This document shows positions 96 to 9,833 of a DNA stretch of 23,413 bases, in pieces. Each line of letters begins with the position of its first letter. Within the stretch, counting starts at the first letter, position 1. Under the pieces are notes generated by a model. That model did no database searches. It saw only the letters and a program-made list of their open reading frames with translations, and had not been told where the DNA came from. The stretch is from a virus: IMG/VR virus record IMGVR_UViG_3300015263_000257, positions 1 through 23,413 of that record, one strand, 5' to 3'. The position numbers and the translations under genes are program-made.

Positions 96-230
96 GGGAT
101 GATTACAGCCACAATATCTCGTATCTTCGGATACTCTTAGAGCAAAGTCTAGGTGAAACTAGAATAGGGACACAACCCGAAACAATAGAAGAGGTCTTAT
201 TAGGTTCCCGAAATCAAGAACCGCCATCCC
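96..230 (+). ncRNA. Structured RNA element 0 (Ro-associated family, divergent interior)
   Basis: The ends pair as GGGATG (96-101) with CATCCC (225-230). Eight bases after the first base of the stem comes TACAGCC, matching the T-W-C-A-G-C block of the five other elements. CATCCC is followed by GTAGAA, as in element 3. The interior is not a recognisable tRNA. It holds hairpins GTATC-TTCG-GATAC (121-134), TCTAG-GTGAAA-CTAGA (148-163), GGG-ACACAA-CCC (167-178) and GGTTC-N10-GAACC (203-222). The canonical tRNA begins nine bases downstream, so the two may be co-transcribed. Family membership rests on the ends only. Confidence 0.55.
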
Positions 231-239
231 GTAGAATAT

Positions 240-318
240 GCTCTCTTAGCTCAGTTGGTTAGAGCGGAATACTCTAAATATTTGTCATGCGTGGGTTCGA
301 GTCCCACAGAGGGCACCA
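240..318 (+). tRNA. tRNA with CUA anticodon (putative amber suppressor)
   Basis: This is a full cloverleaf in normal order with encoded CCA. Acceptor GCTCTCT (240-246) pairs with AGAGGGC (308-314) with one G-U pair; D arm GCTC/GAGC (249-252/262-265); anticodon stem GAATA/TATTT (267-271/279-283); loop CTCTAAA; T arm GTGGG-TTCGAGT-CCCAC (291-307); discriminator A315; CCA 316-318. The loop puts CTA (274-276) at positions 34-36, which reads UAG. The variable region is seven bases (284-290), longer than the usual four to five of class I tRNAs, so the molecule is slightly odd. No other anticodon register pairs as well. Only one small candidate ORF in the window ends in TAG, which is compatible with suppression but does not prove it. 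Confidence 0.8.
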
Positions 319-1189: not shown

Positions 1190-1573
1190 ATGAGACATTA
1201 TGCTTATTTTTTCACACGACAGGATATCTCTCCTGAATATCAAGTAGTTCAGACTGCACATGCTGCATTTCAACTTGGTGTGTTTTCCCAACATGGGACG
1301 CCGTATGAAGGTGATGGGATAGTATCTCCACCACAACTTCACGGTATGCAAATCGATCCACGCGAAACTTATTTCACTGTGGTTGGTGTACGCAATCTGA
1401 CTGCTCTTAATGCAGTTGAACTTATTTTGAATAAGTTTGGTTTTGCGTATGAAGCATTTTTCGAGCCTGATCTTAATGGTGGTGAACATACTTCCATTGC
1501 AGTATACCCAATTGCAGAGGATAAAAAAGGTCCGTTGGACGCATTTAACCTCTTGACAATTGGTAGAAAGTAA
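1190..1573 (+). CDS. PTH2-like (peptidyl-tRNA hydrolase type II fold) protein, 127 aa
   Basis: The N-terminus (YAYFFTRQDISPEY, then VVQTAHAAFQLG at about residues 19-30) resembles the first strand and following helix of the PTH2 fold, in which a Q-x-x-H-A motif sits. The C-terminal EPDLNGGEHTSIAVYP (about 92-107) matches the D-x-x-x-x-x-T strand region. Phages commonly carry such short PTH2-like proteins. The lysine of true PTH2 catalytic sites is not obvious, so hydrolase activity is uncertain; it may bind tRNA or another RNA instead. It is one base downstream of the gene at 805 and seven upstream of the gene at 1580. The setting, amid a tRNA and tRNA-like RNAs, is suggestive. Family call is by pattern memory only. 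Confidence 0.55.
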   Translation: MRHYAYFFTRQDISPEYQVVQTAHAAFQLGVFSQHGTPYEGDGIVSPPQLHGMQIDPRETYFTVVGVRNLTALNAVELILNKFGFAYEAFFEPDLNGGEHTSIAVYPIAEDKKGPLDAFNLLTIGRK

Positions 1574-1851: not shown

Positions 1852-1948
1852 AGGATCGGTTCAGCAACCAAATAGTACGCCAATGGATGGCAATTTGTCT
1901 GCAAAACAAACCTTGGGGGTTCGATTCCCTCTACAAACCAACGATCCT
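1852..1948 (+). ncRNA. tRNA-like RNA element 1 (Cys, GCA anticodon)
   Basis: Closing stem AGGATCG (1852-1858) / CGATCCT (1942-1948); TTCAGCAA follows at the family spacing. Interior arms, in normal tRNA order: D-like GCC-AATGGAT-GGC; a perfect anticodon arm TTTGT-CTGCAAA-ACAAA whose GCA anticodon is that of cysteine; T arm GGGGG-TTCGATT-CCCTC. No acceptor stem forms between the flanks of these arms, so the family closing stem takes its place, joined by a roughly 17-base linker on the 5' side and about 10 on the 3' side. It is therefore not a standard tRNA gene. It lies between the stop of the gene at 1580 and the ribosome binding site of the gene at 1969; GTTGAA follows the stem. Confidence 0.8.
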
Positions 1949-1968
1949 GTTGAATCATGGAGAACATT

Positions 1969-2184
1969 ATGTCACAATGTGTTTGGAATGCCATGTTAGA
2001 CGATAAGTATGACTGTACAGTGATGCGTACAGGTGATTATACTGGCGTTCTAACAATTAAAGAAAATGATGAAACACTCTTTACAAAAGATGTTGAATTG
2101 AGTTATAATGCACAGTTCGGTCCAGATGCATTTGATGTTATGGACTGGCAGAATATGATTATTGAGTTTATCGATAGTCAATAA
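1969..2184 (+). CDS. Small acidic hypothetical protein, 71 aa
   Basis: ATG 1969 is preferred over the in-frame ATG at 1957 because GGAGA (1959-1963) then sits five bases upstream. The product starts MSQCVWNAML, has an alternating beta-like stretch (YTGVLTIKENDETLFTKDV) and a C-terminal helix ending MIIEFIDSQ. It is acidic with no signal peptide or membrane segment. It is wedged between two tRNA-like RNA elements: 20 bases after element 1 and six before element 2. Family not recognised; small acidic phage proteins in accessory regions often target host factors, but nothing here shows that. Confidence 0.7.
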   Translation: MSQCVWNAMLDDKYDCTVMRTGDYTGVLTIKENDETLFTKDVELSYNAQFGPDAFDVMDWQNMIIEFIDSQ

Positions 2185-2190
2185 AGTTTT

Positions 2191-2444
2191 GGGCTGTCTA
2201 CAGCATGTATTTCATTCCATCATAAGGACGAGGTTGCGGTGTTCGAGTCCCGCCGCCCCCACCACAATCCATTACCTCTTTGACCCTTAAGTAGGGTACG
2301 GTGGCTTTCTGGTCTATTCGTAAGTGGCCATAACGGTACATACCGGTTAGCGATAAGGTGTCAATAAGCTGTTGACATACCTGACGTAATGGATTATGAT
2401 GGGGGCGTAGCTCAACTGGTAGAGCGCGTAGAAATGTACAGCCC
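2191..2444 (+). ncRNA. Permuted tRNA-like RNA element 2 (Met, CAU anticodon)
   Basis: Closing stem GGGCTGT (2191-2197) / ACAGCCC (2438-2444), then CTACAGCA at the family spacing; GTTGAA follows the 3' strand. The tRNA 3' half comes first: TCC-ATCATAA-GGACG (CAT anticodon), a T arm with loop TTCGAGT and one bulged T in its stem, acceptor strand CGCCCCC (2254-2260), A, CCA (2262-2264). Then a structured 136-base insert. Then the 5' half: GGGGGCG (2401-2407, pairing all seven acceptor bases), TA, D arm GCTC/GAGC, G, CG. Joining ...GAGC-G-CG to TCC-ATCATAA-GGACG rebuilds a perfect five-pair Met anticodon stem. The order of halves is thus circularly permuted, with the break inside the anticodon stem. 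Confidence 0.88.
2266..2395 (+). other. Structured insert closing the acceptor stem of element 2
   Basis: A perfect 10-base inverted repeat, AATCCATTAC (2266-2275) / GTAATGGATT (2386-2395), stacks above the acceptor stem of element 2 across a five-by-five internal loop that contains the encoded CCA. Inside are further hairpins, such as CGGTA-CA-TACCG (about 2335-2346) and TGTCAA...TTGACA (about 2359-2377). It has no ORF. It makes element 2 about twice the length of its siblings. I do not recognise it as a known intron or riboswitch. Confidence 0.65.
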
Positions 2445-2464
2445 GTTGAATTAAAGGATTGATA

Positions 2465-2617
2465 ATGGTCAAAGATGTTTTTGAAGAGTTTACAATTGAT
2501 CTAGTTGTCAATTGCAACATGAATATGTTTGATGCACGAAAAATTGTTACATTCCTTCGTGGTGAAGGAATTATTGATTATGATATTCTCAGAAAGTATT
2601 ACTCTGAGAGTGAATAA
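2465..2617 (+). CDS. Small acidic hypothetical protein, 50 aa
   Basis: ATG 2465 has AAAGGA (2454-2459) five bases upstream, directly after the GTTGAATT tail of element 2. The product begins MVKDVFEEFTIDLVV and ends RKYYSESE; it is acidic and probably helical, with a central DARKIVTFLRGEG stretch. No domain recognised. Its stop is six bases before the closing stem of element 3. With the gene at 1969 it makes an alternating pattern of small protein, RNA, small protein, RNA. A good ribosome binding site and tight packing argue it is real despite its size. Confidence 0.7.
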   Translation: MVKDVFEEFTIDLVVNCNMNMFDARKIVTFLRGEGIIDYDILRKYYSESE

Positions 2618-2623
2618 AGTTTA

Positions 2624-2749
2624 GGGATGCTTACCGCAACTTGAAGCTATATGGAAACTATGGGTCGTTGGTTCGAATCCAACCCTCCCGGCCATTTATC
2701 GGGAGGTAGCTCAGCTTGGTAGAGCAATAGACAGCAAAAAGTGCATCCC
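2624..2749 (+). ncRNA. Permuted tRNA-like RNA element 3 (Pro type)
   Basis: Closing stem GGGATGC (2624-2630) / GCATCCC (2743-2749), then TTACCGCAA at the family spacing. The 3' half comes first: TGGAAACTAT, variable GGGTC, T arm GTTGG-TTCGAAT-CCAAC, acceptor strand CCTCCCG, G, CCA. A five-base linker TTTAT leads straight into the 5' half, CGGGAGG (seven perfect acceptor pairs), TA, D arm GCTC-AGCTTGGTA-GAGC, and ATAG, which pairs with CTAT of the 3' half. C1-G72 is typical of tRNA-Pro, and TGG stands at the anticodon position, though base 33 is A rather than T. It is circularly permuted with a closed acceptor hairpin, and the anticodon stem opens into the closing stem. Confidence 0.88.
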
Positions 2750-2770
2750 GTAGAAAAAACATGACATATC

Positions 2771-2914
2771 ATGCTTGACAAGCTAGTTCAGTTGATATAT
2801 CATGTACGAATTAAGGCAGACTACAGCAATCTTTACTTCTTTTTTGAAACAAAGGTCCGAGAAGGTTCGATTCCTTCGTGTGTTATGGTTAAGGAAACAC
2901 AACCTGCCTGTTGA
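2771..2914 (+). CDS. Possible small ORF, 47 aa, overlapping element 4
   Basis: ATG 2771 opens a frame to TGA 2914 that runs through the whole of RNA element 4. It would begin MLDKLVQLIYHVRIK, contain YSNLYFFFETKVREG and end with Cys. The composition looks protein-like, but there is no convincing ribosome binding site, and the same bases form clear T and anticodon arms. A 47-codon frame is not rare by chance. I list it because both readings cannot be dismissed; the RNA reading is better supported. Confidence 0.2.
   Translation: MLDKLVQLIYHVRIKADYSNLYFFFETKVREGSIPSCVMVKETQPAC
2814..2909 (+). ncRNA. tRNA-like RNA element 4 (Phe, GAA anticodon, no D arm)
   Basis: Closing stem AGGCAG (2814-2819) / CTGCCT (2904-2909), with CTACAGCAA at the family spacing and GTTGAT after it. 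Inside: anticodon arm CTTTT-TTGAAAC-AAAGG (2839-2855) with anticodon GAA (2846-2848), variable TCCGA, T arm GAAGG-TTCGATT-CCTTC (2861-2877), then a hairpin TGTGTT (2879-2884) / AACACA (2896-2901) at the place of the acceptor stem. No D arm remains. The order (anticodon, T arm, 3' acceptor strand, loop, 5' acceptor strand) is that of a permuted tRNA whose ends lie between D and anticodon arms, with the D arm lost. The CCA is not kept. Confidence 0.75.
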
Positions 2915-2918
2915 TTAA

Positions 2919-2981
2919 AGGTTAATTTCAGCAATCTAAATGCACTTGACTTGTAATCAAAACCGCAAAAAACGTTAACCT
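2919..2981 (+). ncRNA. tRNA-like RNA element 5 (minimal, Thr-type anticodon hairpin)
   Basis: Closing stem AGGTTAA (2919-2925) / TTAACCT (2975-2981), then TTTCAGCAA at the family spacing. The interior keeps only one hairpin, TTGA-CTTGTAA-TCAA (2946-2960), with the form of an anticodon arm: C32, T33, anticodon TGT (2952-2954, Thr), A37, A38. There is no T or D arm. At 63 bases it is the shortest member. It begins nine bases after element 4 ends, and its 3' strand runs into ATGGAGAA, the ribosome binding region of the Ro60-like gene. Confidence 0.65.
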
Positions 2982-3001: not shown

Positions 3002-4414
3002 ATGTCTTTTAAGAATGCCGTACTCGCAACTCCTGTTAAGGCCCGCACTACCAATGGTATGAAGGCTATCCGTTCAACTCTTTCCGAGACCGTTGATCTA
3101 TTCTTCAAGATCGGTGCTTCACGTGGTAAGAACATTACCTCACAGTTTGAACGCGCCTATCAGGAAGATCGTGATGTGGCTCTTCGTATCGCACAGTGGG
3201 CACGTGATGCTCGCGGCGGTGCCGGTGAGCGTGAGCTTTTCCGTCAGGTACTTCGTTACCTAGAAAAGAACCACAAGGAAGACTTGATTGAAACTCGTCT
3301 TCTAAAGAACACTGCTGAAATTGGTCGTTGGGATGATCTTTTGATCTTTACTGATGCCGAAGTCAAGCAGATTGCTTTCGGTCTTATCCGCGATGCTCTA
3401 GAGGCTGGAAACGGTCTTTGCGCTAAGTGGATGCCTCGTAAGGGCGAGAAGGCTGTAGAGCTTCGTGAGTTCCTTGGTTGGTCTCCTAAGTTCTATCGTA
3501 AGCGTCTTGTCGAGCTTACTGGCGTTGTAGAGAGCAAGATGTGTGCGAAGTGTTGGAATGAAATTAACTTTTCCCATGTTCCTTCACTTGCTATGTCTCG
3601 TTATTCCAAGGCATTTGGTCGTAATGCTCCCGATGCATTCACCAAGTACAAGGAAGCATTGAAGAAGGGTGATCCTTCTGTTAAGGTCAATGCAGGTGCT
3701 GTTTACCCATATGATATCGTGAAGAACGTACATTATGGTGACAACAAGCTTGCCGATGAACAGTGGAAGGCTCTGCCTAACTTCATGGGTGATGCCATGG
3801 TTCTACCACTTGTTGACGTTTCTGGTTCTATGACTGCTCGTGTAGGATCAGCAAACAGCAAGGGTGTTACTCTTACCTGTCTAGACGTTGCCGTTTCTCT
3901 TGGTTTGTATTGTGCAGACAAGAACACTGGTCCCTTCAAGGATTTGTTCTTGACCTTCTCAACCAACCCAACCTTCCAGCACTTGAAGGGTACCCTTTCC
4001 CAGAAGGTTAACCAGCTTCGTCGTGCTGATTGGGAAATGTCAACCAACCTACACGGTGCCTTCAACGAAATCTTGAAGGTAGCAGTTCGTAACAAGGTTG
4101 ATCCTGCTGATATGCCTAAGGTTCTCCTAATCATGTCAGATATGCAGTTCAACCAGTGCACCAAGTTCGATAACAGCGCGATTGAAATGATCCGCCGTAA
4201 GTACGAGGAAGCCGGTTACGAAGTTCCTGCTGTAGTCTTCTGGAACATCAATGCCTACGATAATGTTCCTGTGAAGTTCGATGAGAAGGGCGTTGCTCTT
4301 GTCTCTGGATTCTCACCAGCGATCATGAAGGCGGTACTTGGTGCTGATCTAGAAGGTCTAACACCAGAAGCAGTAATGCGTAAGGCAGTAATGTCTGACC
4401 GCTACACTCTTTAA
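3002..4414 (+). CDS. Ro60-like RNA-binding protein (TROVE/DUF2828 plus vWA domain)
   Basis: The 470 residues have the two-part plan of Ro60: a helical-repeat RNA-binding domain (about 25-260) and a von Willebrand A domain (about 265-460). Family signatures are RDARGGAGER (68-77) and INFSHVPSLAMSRY (188-201). The vWA metal site shows as DVSGS (272-276), a later Thr in STNLHGAF and Asp in MSDMQ. In bacteria, Ro60 (Rsr) binds Y RNAs and misfolded RNAs and can tether nucleases. Here the gene directly follows the array of tRNA-like RNAs, separated by 20 bases from the last, with GGAGAA before its ATG. Codon choice looks like that of a well-expressed gene. A terminator follows. The TROVE versus DUF2828 label is uncertain; the two groups look related. 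Confidence 0.85.
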   Translation: MSFKNAVLATPVKARTTNGMKAIRSTLSETVDLFFKIGASRGKNITSQFERAYQEDRDVALRIAQWARDARGGAGERELFRQVLRYLEKNHKEDLIETRLLKNTAEIGRWDDLLIFTDAEVKQIAFGLIRDALEAGNGLCAKWMPRKGEKAVELREFLGWSPKFYRKRLVELTGVVESKMCAKCWNEINFSHVPSLAMSRYSKAFGRNAPDAFTKYKEALKKGDPSVKVNAGAVYPYDIVKNVHYGDNKLADEQWKALPNFMGDAMVLPLVDVSGSMTARVGSANSKGVTLTCLDVAVSLGLYCADKNTGPFKDLFLTFSTNPTFQHLKGTLSQKVNQLRRADWEMSTNLHGAFNEILKVAVRNKVDPADMPKVLLIMSDMQFNQCTKFDNSAIEMIRRKYEEAGYEVPAVVFWNINAYDNVPVKFDEKGVALVSGFSPAIMKAVLGADLEGLTPEAVMRKAVMSDRYTL

Positions 4415-7901: not shown

Positions 7902-9833
7902 TATACCGTAGTACTTGTACATATCGATGTTGTGTTGCGTACCATATAGTCTTGCTTGTTCCGCAGTAACATCATATCTGTATTGTGGCGCATTACTATT
8001 CCAGACTTGGAACCTATCTGCGCCAGTTCTTCTAATATAGTGGTTAATAGCCCCTTGGGCTGTTCTTTCTACAGCAAACCTCATCATATTCAATCCCTTG
8101 ATTGTCTCACCAGTTCTTGTTCTTGGTGCTGCAACAGGTTCGGCTGCTCTACCACCAACAATCCATGGACGTTCATTGTAAAAGCTGATAGGATTGATCT
8201 GTTGATTGTTTCTGTGGACTTCGAAGTGAAGGTGTGGACCAGTTGACAAACCAGTGCTACCCACTCTACCTATGATATCATTTTCATTAACATTAGCACC
8301 TTCTGATACATTAATCGAACTAAGGTGTGCATATCTTGTAATATAATCATTGTTGTGGTCAATATCTACAGTGTTACCATATCCGTTCATTGGTCCTGCA
8401 TGTGTGACTCTACCTCTAATGTAAGCATGTACGGAAGAGCCTGTTGGCGCACCAATATCAATTCCTCTATGCATACGTCTACCACCCAATACAGGATGGT
8501 CTCTCATTCCAAAGCCACTGGTAACTCTTCCTTGTCTGCCAGTTGCCTCTTGTGAAGCAACGCCATTGTATATCGCGTATGCATTTGCTAGTCTTTGACC
8601 ATACGCAGCTTCATGTCCAGCCGCTCTTTCATAATTTTGTAAGAAAGAACCAACAGCCTGATCTACAGTTGTCGTTCTTCTTAATGCATCGCCAGCCGCT
8701 TTTTCGCTGTTGTTAAGCTCCCACTGTACATATTGAAGCTGTTGTTCAAACGTAGTTCCACGTAGTGACCTTACACCTAGTGCTCTCATAGGTTTATCAC
8801 CAGATTGACGATCTGCTCTCCATTGTGCTATACCCCAAGCACCTTGTCCACCACCAGCCGGATTGTATGCGTTTGGATCAAGGTTTGGACCAGATTCACG
8901 CTGCATTACACCAACAATAGCTGCCGCTTGTTCTGGCGACCATCCTTGAGACTTAAAGTATTCAAATGCTCTTCTGGCATTATCTGTTGAACCCGCAGGT
9001 GGATAACTGCCCATAGCACCACCCCCGCCGCCAGTAATGCCAAGAAATTCACCAGCACTTCTTACCCAACCAGTAACATTTTCAATAGTTCTGTCTAGGA
9101 AGTCTGCAAATCTTTCTGAGTATGATGGCCCGGTTGGTTCTTGTGCTCTGACTCTTTCTGCTTGCTGCGTTCTGTTCATGGCAGCTTCAACGCTTTGGGT
9201 AGAAGTATCTGGCTGTCTGGTAGGTCTTTCCGCCGCACTAGCGGGTGTCGCCCCACCAAATGCGACTGCCCCGGCACCAACAACCGCCGCACCTACAGCA
9301 GCTTTTTTCCAAGGTATTTTACCAAGAATTCCCATACCTGTTCTGGCAGGAGAAGCAATATCAACAATATCGTCTGCTATCTCTACCGCCGTTTGCACTA
9401 CACTTTCTACTGTACCTTTTCCACCAGTTATGTTAATCTTTCTTAGCTTGGTTGCCAGTAAATCTACGTTATACGAAACTTCATTAATAGAAGTCAGTAA
9501 CGTTGCAATACCATCTTCTGATAACTGTGGTCCGCTCATAGTAGCAGATATGTTTGGTGTGCCTTCAAGTACGTTTTCTTTTTCTACCCCTTGAAAATTT
9601 CTTTGTTGATATTGGTGTAAGTTTCTGATATTAAGGGCAGATGCATATATCTGATTCATCGCTCCTTGTAGCGAAGTCAATGAGTTTGATATGTTCTTTA
9701 AATCTTTTGAGGAAAGTTCAGCACCCTTACGGACAGCATCTTTTGGATCAGGAATGTTGACATACAATCCCTTTCGTACTATATTAAGTACGGTCTTATC
9801 GTCAAGCTGATTTAATACGTCTATAAGTGCCAT
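7899..9833 (-). CDS. Tail-associated double peptidoglycan hydrolase (lysozyme-like plus M23)
   Basis: The 644 residues have four parts. Residues 1-170 are a helical, probably virion-anchoring region. A short hydrophobic stretch follows (about 175-200, rich in Gly and Ala). Residues about 280-400 match the phage tail lysozyme family: ARRAFEYFKSQGWSPEQAAA, VMQRESG and GAWGIAQW. Residues about 435-555 are an M23 metallopeptidase with HRGIDIG (455-461) and HLHFEVH (534-540), the zinc ligands of LytM-type enzymes. Such virion proteins open peptidoglycan during DNA entry. It is the last gene of the minus-strand block, nine bases after the gene at 9843. The gp5-like spike encoded at 18394 has no lysozyme, so this protein probably takes over that job. 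Confidence 0.85.
   Translation of the reverse strand: MALIDVLNQLDDKTVLNIVRKGLYVNIPDPKDAVRKGAELSSKDLKNISNSLTSLQGAMNQIYASALNIRNLHQYQQRNFQGVEKENVLEGTPNISATMSGPQLSEDGIATLLTSINEVSYNVDLLATKLRKINITGGKGTVESVVQTAVEIADDIVDIASPARTGMGILGKIPWKKAAVGAAVVGAGAVAFGGATPASAAERPTRQPDTSTQSVEAAMNRTQQAERVRAQEPTGPSYSERFADFLDRTIENVTGWVRSAGEFLGITGGGGGAMGSYPPAGSTDNARRAFEYFKSQGWSPEQAAAIVGVMQRESGPNLDPNAYNPAGGGQGAWGIAQWRADRQSGDKPMRALGVRSLRGTTFEQQLQYVQWELNNSEKAAGDALRRTTTVDQAVGSFLQNYERAAGHEAAYGQRLANAYAIYNGVASQEATGRQGRVTSGFGMRDHPVLGGRRMHRGIDIGAPTGSSVHAYIRGRVTHAGPMNGYGNTVDIDHNNDYITRYAHLSSINVSEGANVNENDIIGRVGSTGLSTGPHLHFEVHRNNQQINPISFYNERPWIVGGRAAEPVAAPRTRTGETIKGLNMMRFAVERTAQGAINHYIRRTGADRFQVWNSNAPQYRYDVTAEQARLYGTQHNIDMYKYYGI

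Follow-up and report, generated by a model that had tools for sequence, protein, structure and literature searches.

Anticodon-arm RNAs in a clamp array beside a phage Ro60-fold gene: possible decoys for anticodon nucleases

Why should a virus of bacteria carry, upstream of a gene for a Ro60-fold protein, a series of small RNA elements which display tRNA anticodon loops? This question is raised by the stretch of DNA analysed here, which comprises 23,413 nt of the IMG/VR record IMGVR_UViG_3300015263_000257 and is called the window in the following. A sequence-only reading had described five elements with anticodon loops of five identities, in RNAs that could probably not be charged, and had suggested that they are decoys for anticodon nucleases. 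The inventory proved incomplete, since a sixth element (96–236) and a closing structure common to all had been overlooked. The six elements (E0 to E5; 96–236, 1852–1954, 2191–2450, 2624–2755, 2814–2915 and 2919–2987, all on the + strand) share one stem-plus-motif, the "clamp", the stem of which has about 7 bp (AGGNNNN/NNNNCCT), encloses TNC[AC]GCA and is usually followed by GTTGA. At 91 loci, including a copy of the window (L001), 201 clamps were counted on the strand of the Ro60 gene, versus 14 on the opposite strand and 6 in one shuffle. Zero clamps were obtained at 16 of the 65 loci having enough upstream DNA, with a finder that requires a perfect stem and misses variants. A clamp match at 8607–8746 was discarded, as it falls within an ORF; Rfam matches to miRNA and plastid families in the window were dismissed as chance.

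The six elements differ in what the clamp encloses. In E1 (1852–1954) the clamp replaces the acceptor stem of an unpermuted tRNA body, with a T arm at 1915–1931; Rfam gave a weak match to unpermuted tRNA (26.8 bits, cut-off 29). The Cys GCA arm of E1 (1894–1910), like the loops of E2, E4 and E5 described below, was confirmed by eye and by script, with a 5-bp stem, TTTGT/ACAAA, and the loop CTGCAAA. E4 (2814–2915) contains a T arm (2861–2877) and the Phe GAA arm (2839–2855; loop TTGAAAC, 5-bp stem CTTTT/AAAGG including one G-U pair), although RNAfold favours an alternative pairing of its core. E5 (2919–2987) is of the simplest class and consists of the clamp and a Thr UGU arm only (2946–2960; 4-bp stem, loop CTTGTAA). 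Thus, three of the five claimed identities correspond to canonical anticodon arms. For Met CAU in E2 (2191–2450), the loop ATCATAA is present at 2216–2228, but its stem has just 3 bp; Pro UGG in E3 (2624–2755) found no support, since no 7-nt loop with U33 on at least 3 pairs occurs there. E2 and E3 are clamps on circularly permuted tRNAs: the order of modules in E2 is T arm, acceptor 3' strand, an insert of about 135 nt, acceptor 5' strand and D arm, and E3, without a canonical anticodon arm, is YrlA-like, with a partial Rfam match of 41.2 bits (cut-off 69) to model positions 23–88 of 114. E0 (clamp GGGATG/CATCCC, with TACAGC and GTAGAA) has a large cargo, in which no anticodon arm was recognised; relatives were found in two other loci (L023, 4060–4198; L024, 2971–3178). 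ARAGORN, which looks for a cloverleaf with acceptor stem, called none of the five previously noted elements a tRNA, its sole call in the window being a CUA tRNA at 240–318.

The neighbouring gene (3002–4414, + strand) encodes a protein of 470 aa, in which Pfam recognises DUF2828 and DUF7788. Its AlphaFold model (pLDDT 80.9, pTM 0.80) matched the structure of Ro60 with RNA (2i91) with a Z score of 22.8 over 404 residues (rmsd 3.7), and the claim of a Ro60-like protein is upheld by the predicted fold, a HEAT-like ring and a von Willebrand A domain. In the latter, the residues D272, S274 and S276 of the DxSxS metal site are invariant across 22 sequences. Pfam at E values up to 0.1 listed these two DUFs alone and no TROVE domain, an absence which is weak evidence; searches of the PDB with the protein sequence and with a profile were unproductive. 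The translation-rescue flavour ascribed to the other neighbours was borne out as well. The tRNA at 240–318 (+ strand; Rfam tRNA, 59 bits) is of the amber-suppressor type and complete with CCA, and a permuted tmRNA lies upstream in L001. The gene at 1190–1573 (+ strand), without a Pfam match, yielded an AlphaFold model (pLDDT 75.5) with the fold of peptidyl-tRNA hydrolase 2 (PTH2); PTH2 structures filled the first 13 places among the Foldseek matches, 12 with E ≤ 0.001 (best 4.4e-5).

Whether the anticodon arms are more than accidental can be judged from related phages, in which the simplest elements are clamp plus anticodon stem-loop (ASL) and nothing else. Isolates with such RNAs are Synechococcus phage BUCT-ZZ01 and Aeromonas phage 4_4572. 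Among the 57 distinct cores of this short class, 36 contained an ASL having U33 and R37, versus 2.8 on average and 8 at most in shuffles; this count comes from an anchored test which selects the best-pairing loop and is therefore biased toward pairing. A fairer test with one loop motif per core, for which 18 of the 57 cores were usable, gave 10/18, where 5000 swaps averaged 2.1 and did not exceed 8. U33, A37 and A38 on at least 4 pairs occurred in 34/57 short cores, and a T-arm motif in none of the 57; in the class with T arms, an ASL was found in 14/33 (null mean 1.6, maximum 5). Since the elements share kinship, none of these counts represents independent events. Six loci carry two short heads, with two different anticodons in each. 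Position 36 is A or U in 35 of 36 heads, versus 344 of 585 tRNA genes at the same loci. The majority of distinct elements (126/183) are longer than the short class; in 62 big ones no anticodon-arm head has been seen so far, and the big cargo of one locus (L010) gave no match in Rfam.

IMG/VR was searched with a pattern of fixed loop and closing A-T pair, blind to Ro60 and to pairing, and 60 clamped UGU/UUU elements were found. The ASL stem was kept in 60/60 of these, versus 1/33 unclamped matches; compensatory changes occurred at 4 of the 5 stem pairs, with a score reached by 0 of 500 shuffles. Ro60 was present in 48 of 60 contigs with clamped elements versus 0 of 16 unclamped controls, and none of the 25 matches of the UGU pattern in GTDB genomes was clamped. 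Computation thus shows a clamp family with a selected anticodon-arm head and linkage to Ro60, and bacterial genomes without clamped matches to the UGU pattern tested. It is likewise supported that the anticodon arm is the part under selection, with its U33, 7-nt loop and compensating stem, and that it occurs without the rest of the tRNA. In this respect the sequence-only interpretation stands in part: anticodon arms are selected for in clamp RNAs adjoining a Ro60-fold gene.

The architecture is very probably that of a Ro60-fold protein beside an array of small RNAs which share a clamp and of which many heads are copies of tRNA anticodon arms. The best explanation overall, with nearly an even chance of being right, would be a phage Ro60 ribonucleoprotein system in which these heads are decoys. 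The decoy function, directed at anticodon nucleases, is the best-fitting reading of the heads and also the least certain step, and it is advanced tentatively. Ro60 would bind the clamp and thereby stabilise or present the head; bacterial YrlA is closed by a different stem, so that the presumed binding rests on linkage. The heads might then occupy host proteins that read anticodon arms, chiefly anticodon nucleases of defence or toxin systems. With the nucleases decoyed, working tRNAs could survive the infection, and several anticodons per array could cover several nucleases.

The decoy reading is favoured by the activity of Cas13a, which, when activated, prefers the tRNAs Lys UUU, Glu UUC, Gln UUG and Thr UGU and also cleaves small loops mimicking the anticodon arm (PMC11042736), and by a proposal from 2020 that YrlA inhibits an anticodon nuclease by competition (PMC7790460). 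It is weakened by results on retron-Eco7, from which a phage tRNA-Tyr no longer rescued when its anticodon or stem-loops were changed; the authors presume that a role of this tRNA in protein synthesis, not decoying, is required (PMC11555353). The preponderance of A or U at position 36, which is not required of a decoy set, also argues against it. The overall explanation is further weakened by the large share of elements exceeding the short class, including the 62 big ones that show no anticodon-arm head so far, and by the patchy occurrence of RNA-repair ligases in 16 large contigs, hand-picked and with no control set (PF09511 in 1/16, PF09414 in 7/16, RtcB in 0/16).

The same bias at position 36 would suit a different, rather unlikely, function, namely that the heads serve as binding partners or sinks for tRNA-modifying enzymes acting at position 37, i.e., MiaA (A36A37A38) and the t6A enzymes (U36A37), or become modified in order to make the ribonucleoprotein work. 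Such enzymes read A or U at position 36 together with U33, A37 and A38, and the latter three are present on at least 4 pairs in most short cores; however, AU-rich elements could yield the same bias, and the related heads are not a count of independent events. A classical Ro60/Y-RNA role, with the RNAs acting as gates for Ro60 or as tethers of an exonuclease and with the anticodon arm as one convenient hairpin, appears unlikely. The Ro60 fold and the YrlA-type module kept in E2 and E3 are in agreement with it, as is the PNPase-Rsr-Y RNA complex of bacteria, in which the tRNA-like part of YrlA serves as the attachment for PNPase (PMC8394870), but a plain hairpin needs neither U33, A37 and A38 nor a loop of exactly 7 bases. 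With lower probability still, the anticodon arm may guide the Ro60 particle to ribosomes by pairing with codons in the A site, either for hibernation or for rescue. Decoding uses U33, A37 and A38, which the heads retain, and the PTH2-fold, CUA-tRNA and tmRNA neighbours would suit such a role; the anticodons are, however, many and unrelated, and a clamp-bound protein may not fit the A site. Neutral relics, i.e., tRNA genes caught in the clamp and now decaying, would be compatible with the evident tRNA origin, with the abundance of tRNA genes (623 spread over 72 of the 90 loci) and with the arm lost from E3; this very improbable explanation was rejected in view of the ASL excess in short cores, where the anticodon arm is the sole tRNA part to survive, the 60/60 stems kept and the compensatory changes. 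A single aminoacyl-tRNA synthetase is an unlikely target, since many identities occur, among them Ser, and SerRS ignores the anticodon.

If the heads are decoys, a more far-reaching and doubtful version would be a bait set scaffolded by Ro60, with interchangeable arms on a protein-held clamp, the anticodons of which would change in evolution so as to follow whichever tRNA-cutting defences the hosts possess. Such an RNA anti-defence system, built from parts of tRNA, would have at least four layouts: the bare arm, the tRNA body whose acceptor stem is the clamp, the permuted tRNA, and the tRNA with the clamp inside the anticodon arm. Bacterial Y RNAs have been described as tethers and tRNA mimics; many phages instead show the anticodon arm itself, often alone, beside Ro60, and the role of Y RNAs with tRNA parts becomes sharply testable through the loop alone. 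This display also hints at a way for phages to counter tRNA-cutting immunity by RNA, besides spare tRNAs or the repair of cut tRNAs.

Among known systems, the phage tRNAs active against retron-Eco7 and PrrC are similar as phage-made tRNA parts which plausibly counter tRNA-cutting immunity; they are, however, complete and thought to replace the cut tRNA (PMC11555353), whereas the array elements, as written, are unable to act as ordinary tRNAs. The protein resembles Ro60 proteins such as Rsr and the Ro60 of Thermus phage phiLo (9l5y) over its whole length (Z 12.0 to 22.8), although identities are about 12–18% and Pfam assigns it to DUF2828/DUF7788. In Listeria phage CKA15, the 2 kb preceding an Rsr-like gene include highly transcribed, presumably noncoding regions, i.e., putative Y RNAs, for which an anticodon arm is not mentioned in the accessible text of that report (PMC12282133); phage Y RNAs with anticodon arms were not found in the open-access literature. 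YrlA (RF02553) is, like the elements, a small RNA adjoining a Ro60-fold gene and closed by a long stem, and its permuted module of T arm, acceptor and D arm recurs in E2 and E3, not in E1, E4 and E5. Membership of the whole array in YrlA was rejected, because the Rfam score of E3 is below the cut-off, the other five elements are not listed at E values up to 1, and the closing stem of the Rfam consensus, GGCGAAUGC...CUUGUCGCC, is not matched by the clamp. The YrlA consensus is also without an anticodon arm, in contrast to E1, E4, E5 and 36 of 57 short relatives. We read the array as a phage-specific, Ro60-linked variant of Y RNA with an anticodon arm as its head.

Six noncoding elements (E0–E5) are located in the window, an IMG/VR virus record of 23,413 bases, upstream of the gene for a 470-residue protein (3002-4414, +); the same region is present on a second IMG/VR contig (L001), extended 2 kb further upstream. 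All six share a clamp, i.e., a closing stem of 6–8 bp beginning AGG or GGG, with TNC[AC]GC inside the stem and GTTGA, GTAGA or GTATA behind the 3' strand. The sequence-only reading had recognized five of the elements and overlooked E0 (96-236) and the clamp. In E1 (1852-1954) the clamp occupies the place of the tRNA acceptor stem, E2 (2191-2450) and E3 (2624-2755) are circularly permuted tRNAs with the layout of YrlA, E4 (2814-2915) contains an anticodon arm and a T arm, and E5 (2919-2987) consists of clamp and anticodon arm and nothing else. Among the anticodon loops proposed in that reading, 7-nt loops with U33 were confirmed for Cys GCA (E1, 5 bp), Phe GAA (E4, 5 bp with one G-U) and Thr UGU (E5, 4 bp); the Met CAU loop of E2 has a stem of only 3 bp, and the Pro UGG loop of E3 was unsupported. 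The acceptor strands of E2 are separated by an insert (2265-2400) of about 135 nt, which is structured, had no match in Rfam, and is kept in three relatives (L002 475-734, L003 3371-3630, L024 4498-4754; GGTGGCTTTCTGGTCTATTCGT...). A stretch 73.6% identical to E3 adjoins a tRNA array in Klebsiella phage KP13-16 (L015 4001-4109).

Loci of Ro60 relatives were taken from IMG/VR (13 loci, plus the best 80 of 594). A simple clamp finder applied to 91 loci, among them the window and the L001 copy, identified 201 matches on the Ro60 strand; the opposite strand had 14, and a single dinucleotide shuffle had 6. Of the 201, 156 were within 2.5 kb upstream of Ro60, and at least one match occurred in 49 of the 65 loci having 2.5 kb of upstream DNA. 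Removal of L001, of repeated cores and of a window match discarded as false (8607-8746) left 183 distinct elements, of which 57 were short (≤80 nt) and 62 big; a T-arm motif was present in a further 35, and the other 29, of middle length, lacked it. A big structured RNA is also found within clamps, at window 96-236, L005 2229-2482, L007 4440-4719, L008 2709-2993 and L010 4421-4701, the big class making up 62/183 elements. The fold of four big relatives comprises 76 pairs, 11 with compensatory change; the L010 cargo had no match in Rfam. Six further cargoes share a CCCGAATCTGG stretch and have no tRNA arm (L036 4788-4878, L039 1344-1433, L052 1131-1239, L060 177-268, L062 4893-4988, L065 4784-4876).

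The head held by the short clamps is an anticodon arm. Compared with 300 shuffles preserving the motif, a hairpin of at least 4 pairs with a 7-nt loop was found in 42 of the 57 short cores (shuffle mean 16.3, maximum 28), such a hairpin plus U33 and R37 in 36 (mean 2.8, maximum 8), and plus U33, A37 and A38 in 34 (mean 1.7, maximum 8). Since the T-arm motif occurred in 0/57 and the D-arm motif in 1/57 short cores, these elements retain the anticodon arm and no other. In the T-arm class, reduced to 33 without L073 8344 (coding-like) and L040 2050 (belonging to the big class), 14 elements carry an anticodon arm between the motif and the T arm (mean of the null 1.6, maximum 5). The anticodons of the 36 short heads were UGU (13), UGA (5), GUA (4), UCU (3), GGA, UUU and GAA (2 each), and GUU, CUU, UGG, GAU and UCA (once each); 11 of the 36 had a cognate tRNA gene in their locus, the loci being pieces.

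A search independent of Ro60 and of pairing used the pattern CAGCAA, ACTTGTAAT or ACTTTTAAT, CCTGTTG, with free gaps, over all IMG/VR contigs, and found 93 and 39 stretches, respectively; a scrambled loop of equal composition yielded 8, none of them clamped. A perfect clamp stem of at least 6 pairs was present in 60 of 93 distinct matches, and an anticodon stem of at least 4 pairs in 60/60 clamped versus 1/33 unclamped matches. In 15 distinct 17-mers 97.3% of cells were paired, with two-sided changes in 4 of 5 pairs and a covariation score reached by 0/500 shuffles. Of the 60 clamped matches, 29 had Ro60 encoded in the same stretch and strand, and 19 of the remaining 31 had it on the contig (total 48/60), compared with 0/16 unclamped control contigs. 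In GTDB species genomes the UGU pattern gave 25 matches, of which none was clamped or had Ro60 in its stretch; therefore, the UGU form of the clamped RNA looks phage-specific.

Clamp-like hairpins were also seen inside tRNA genes of isolate phages, annotated as odd tRNA, pseudo tRNA or not at all (L017 5669-5782; L018 5858-5972, 5979-6092; L020 5856-5976, 5986-6098; L101 7801-7913; L102 994-1110; L103 7522-7639). These layouts were read by eye. Among 78 Rfam matches across 14 loci of named phages, 8 were tRNA genes of 113–121 nt, 7 of them with an internal hairpin followed by TNC[ATG]GCA; the annotated pseudo-tRNA L018 5979-6092 contains the same hairpin. Rfam alignments of L020 and L102 place the insert in the anticodon arm, and a small hairpin GC-CTGTTAA-GC (Asn GUU) adjoins it in L017 and L101. 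The phages are Cronobacter S13, Citrobacter Ci1, Synechococcus BUCT-ZZ01 and Aeromonas Ahp1, 4_4572 and phiAS5; in 4_4572, clamp elements with Lys UUU and Met CAU arms lie just upstream of Ro60.

The 470-residue protein matched DUF2828 and DUF7788 in Pfam, and 682 of 50,697 phage records contain a gene for a relative. Its AlphaFold model (22 sequences, pLDDT 80.9, pTM 0.80) matched Ro60 2i91 over most of the protein (Z 22.8, 404 residues, rmsd 3.7), as well as 1yvp (Z 22.7), Ro60 of Thermus phage phiLo (9l5y, Z 14.4), Deinococcus Rsr (2nvo, Z 12.0) and, with Foldseek, 9kop (E 2.6e-9). From linkage alone we infer that Ro60 may bind the clamp. In Serratia phage BF (L104 1813-5021) an RNA ligase gene precedes Ro60 by two genes, and in Listeria phage LP-048 (L108 3492-7554) Ro60 is followed, within a few genes, by an RtcB-like ligase.

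A complete CUA tRNA (240-318), a PTH2 fold in the protein at 1190-1573 and, in L001, a permuted tmRNA about 0.5–0.9 kb ahead of the window start are consistent with the translation-rescue neighbourhood proposed earlier, a fit from which no function of the array follows. Permuted phage tmRNA genes lie close to Ro60 arrays in L001 (1122-1534), L003 (2019-2343) and L012 (2216-2593). The amber tRNA occurs amid 26 chosen window genes with stops TAA (20), TGA (6) and TAG (0). A long hairpin (735-807) lies just ahead of the gene at 805; its Rfam miRNA matches were attributed to chance. Plain text search located TATAAATA octamers, the late-promoter motif of T4-like phages, at 2, 328, 6804 and 14351 (+).

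The part under selection is the anticodon arm, across at least four layouts, with acceptor stem, T arm and D arm each dispensable, which argues that the head's partner should be something recognizing anticodon arms. Anticodon nucleases would be natural candidates, because they are active in defence against phages and several of them take small stem-loops as substrates. Activated Cas13a is reported to have Thr UGU and Lys UUU among its preferred tRNAs, and to cut small loops mimicking the arm as well (PMC11042736). Position 36 is A or U in 35/36 heads versus 344/585 tRNA genes found in these loci (Fisher p 4e-7, heads not independent); this bias could come from base composition or from an enzyme acting on position 37. 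It counts against the simple decoy of the sequence-only reading, in which heads may occupy anticodon nucleases, as does another study, where anticodon or stem-loop changes abolished rescue by phage tRNA-Tyr, which the authors presume to function as a tRNA (PMC11555353).

E0–E5 were ruled out as tRNA genes, and YrlA as defined by Rfam was ruled out by a score below the cut-off and a closing stem unlike the clamp. Work from 2020 on the RNA-repair operon of Salmonella had already raised YrlA as a possible competitive inhibitor of the nuclease, and found that it was not a substrate (PMC7790460). Among the open-access papers searched, none combined Y RNA, anticodon stem-loop and phage. Ro60-type proteins, and Y RNAs or YrlA, are already known from phages (PMC7824862; PMC7765460; PMC12282133).
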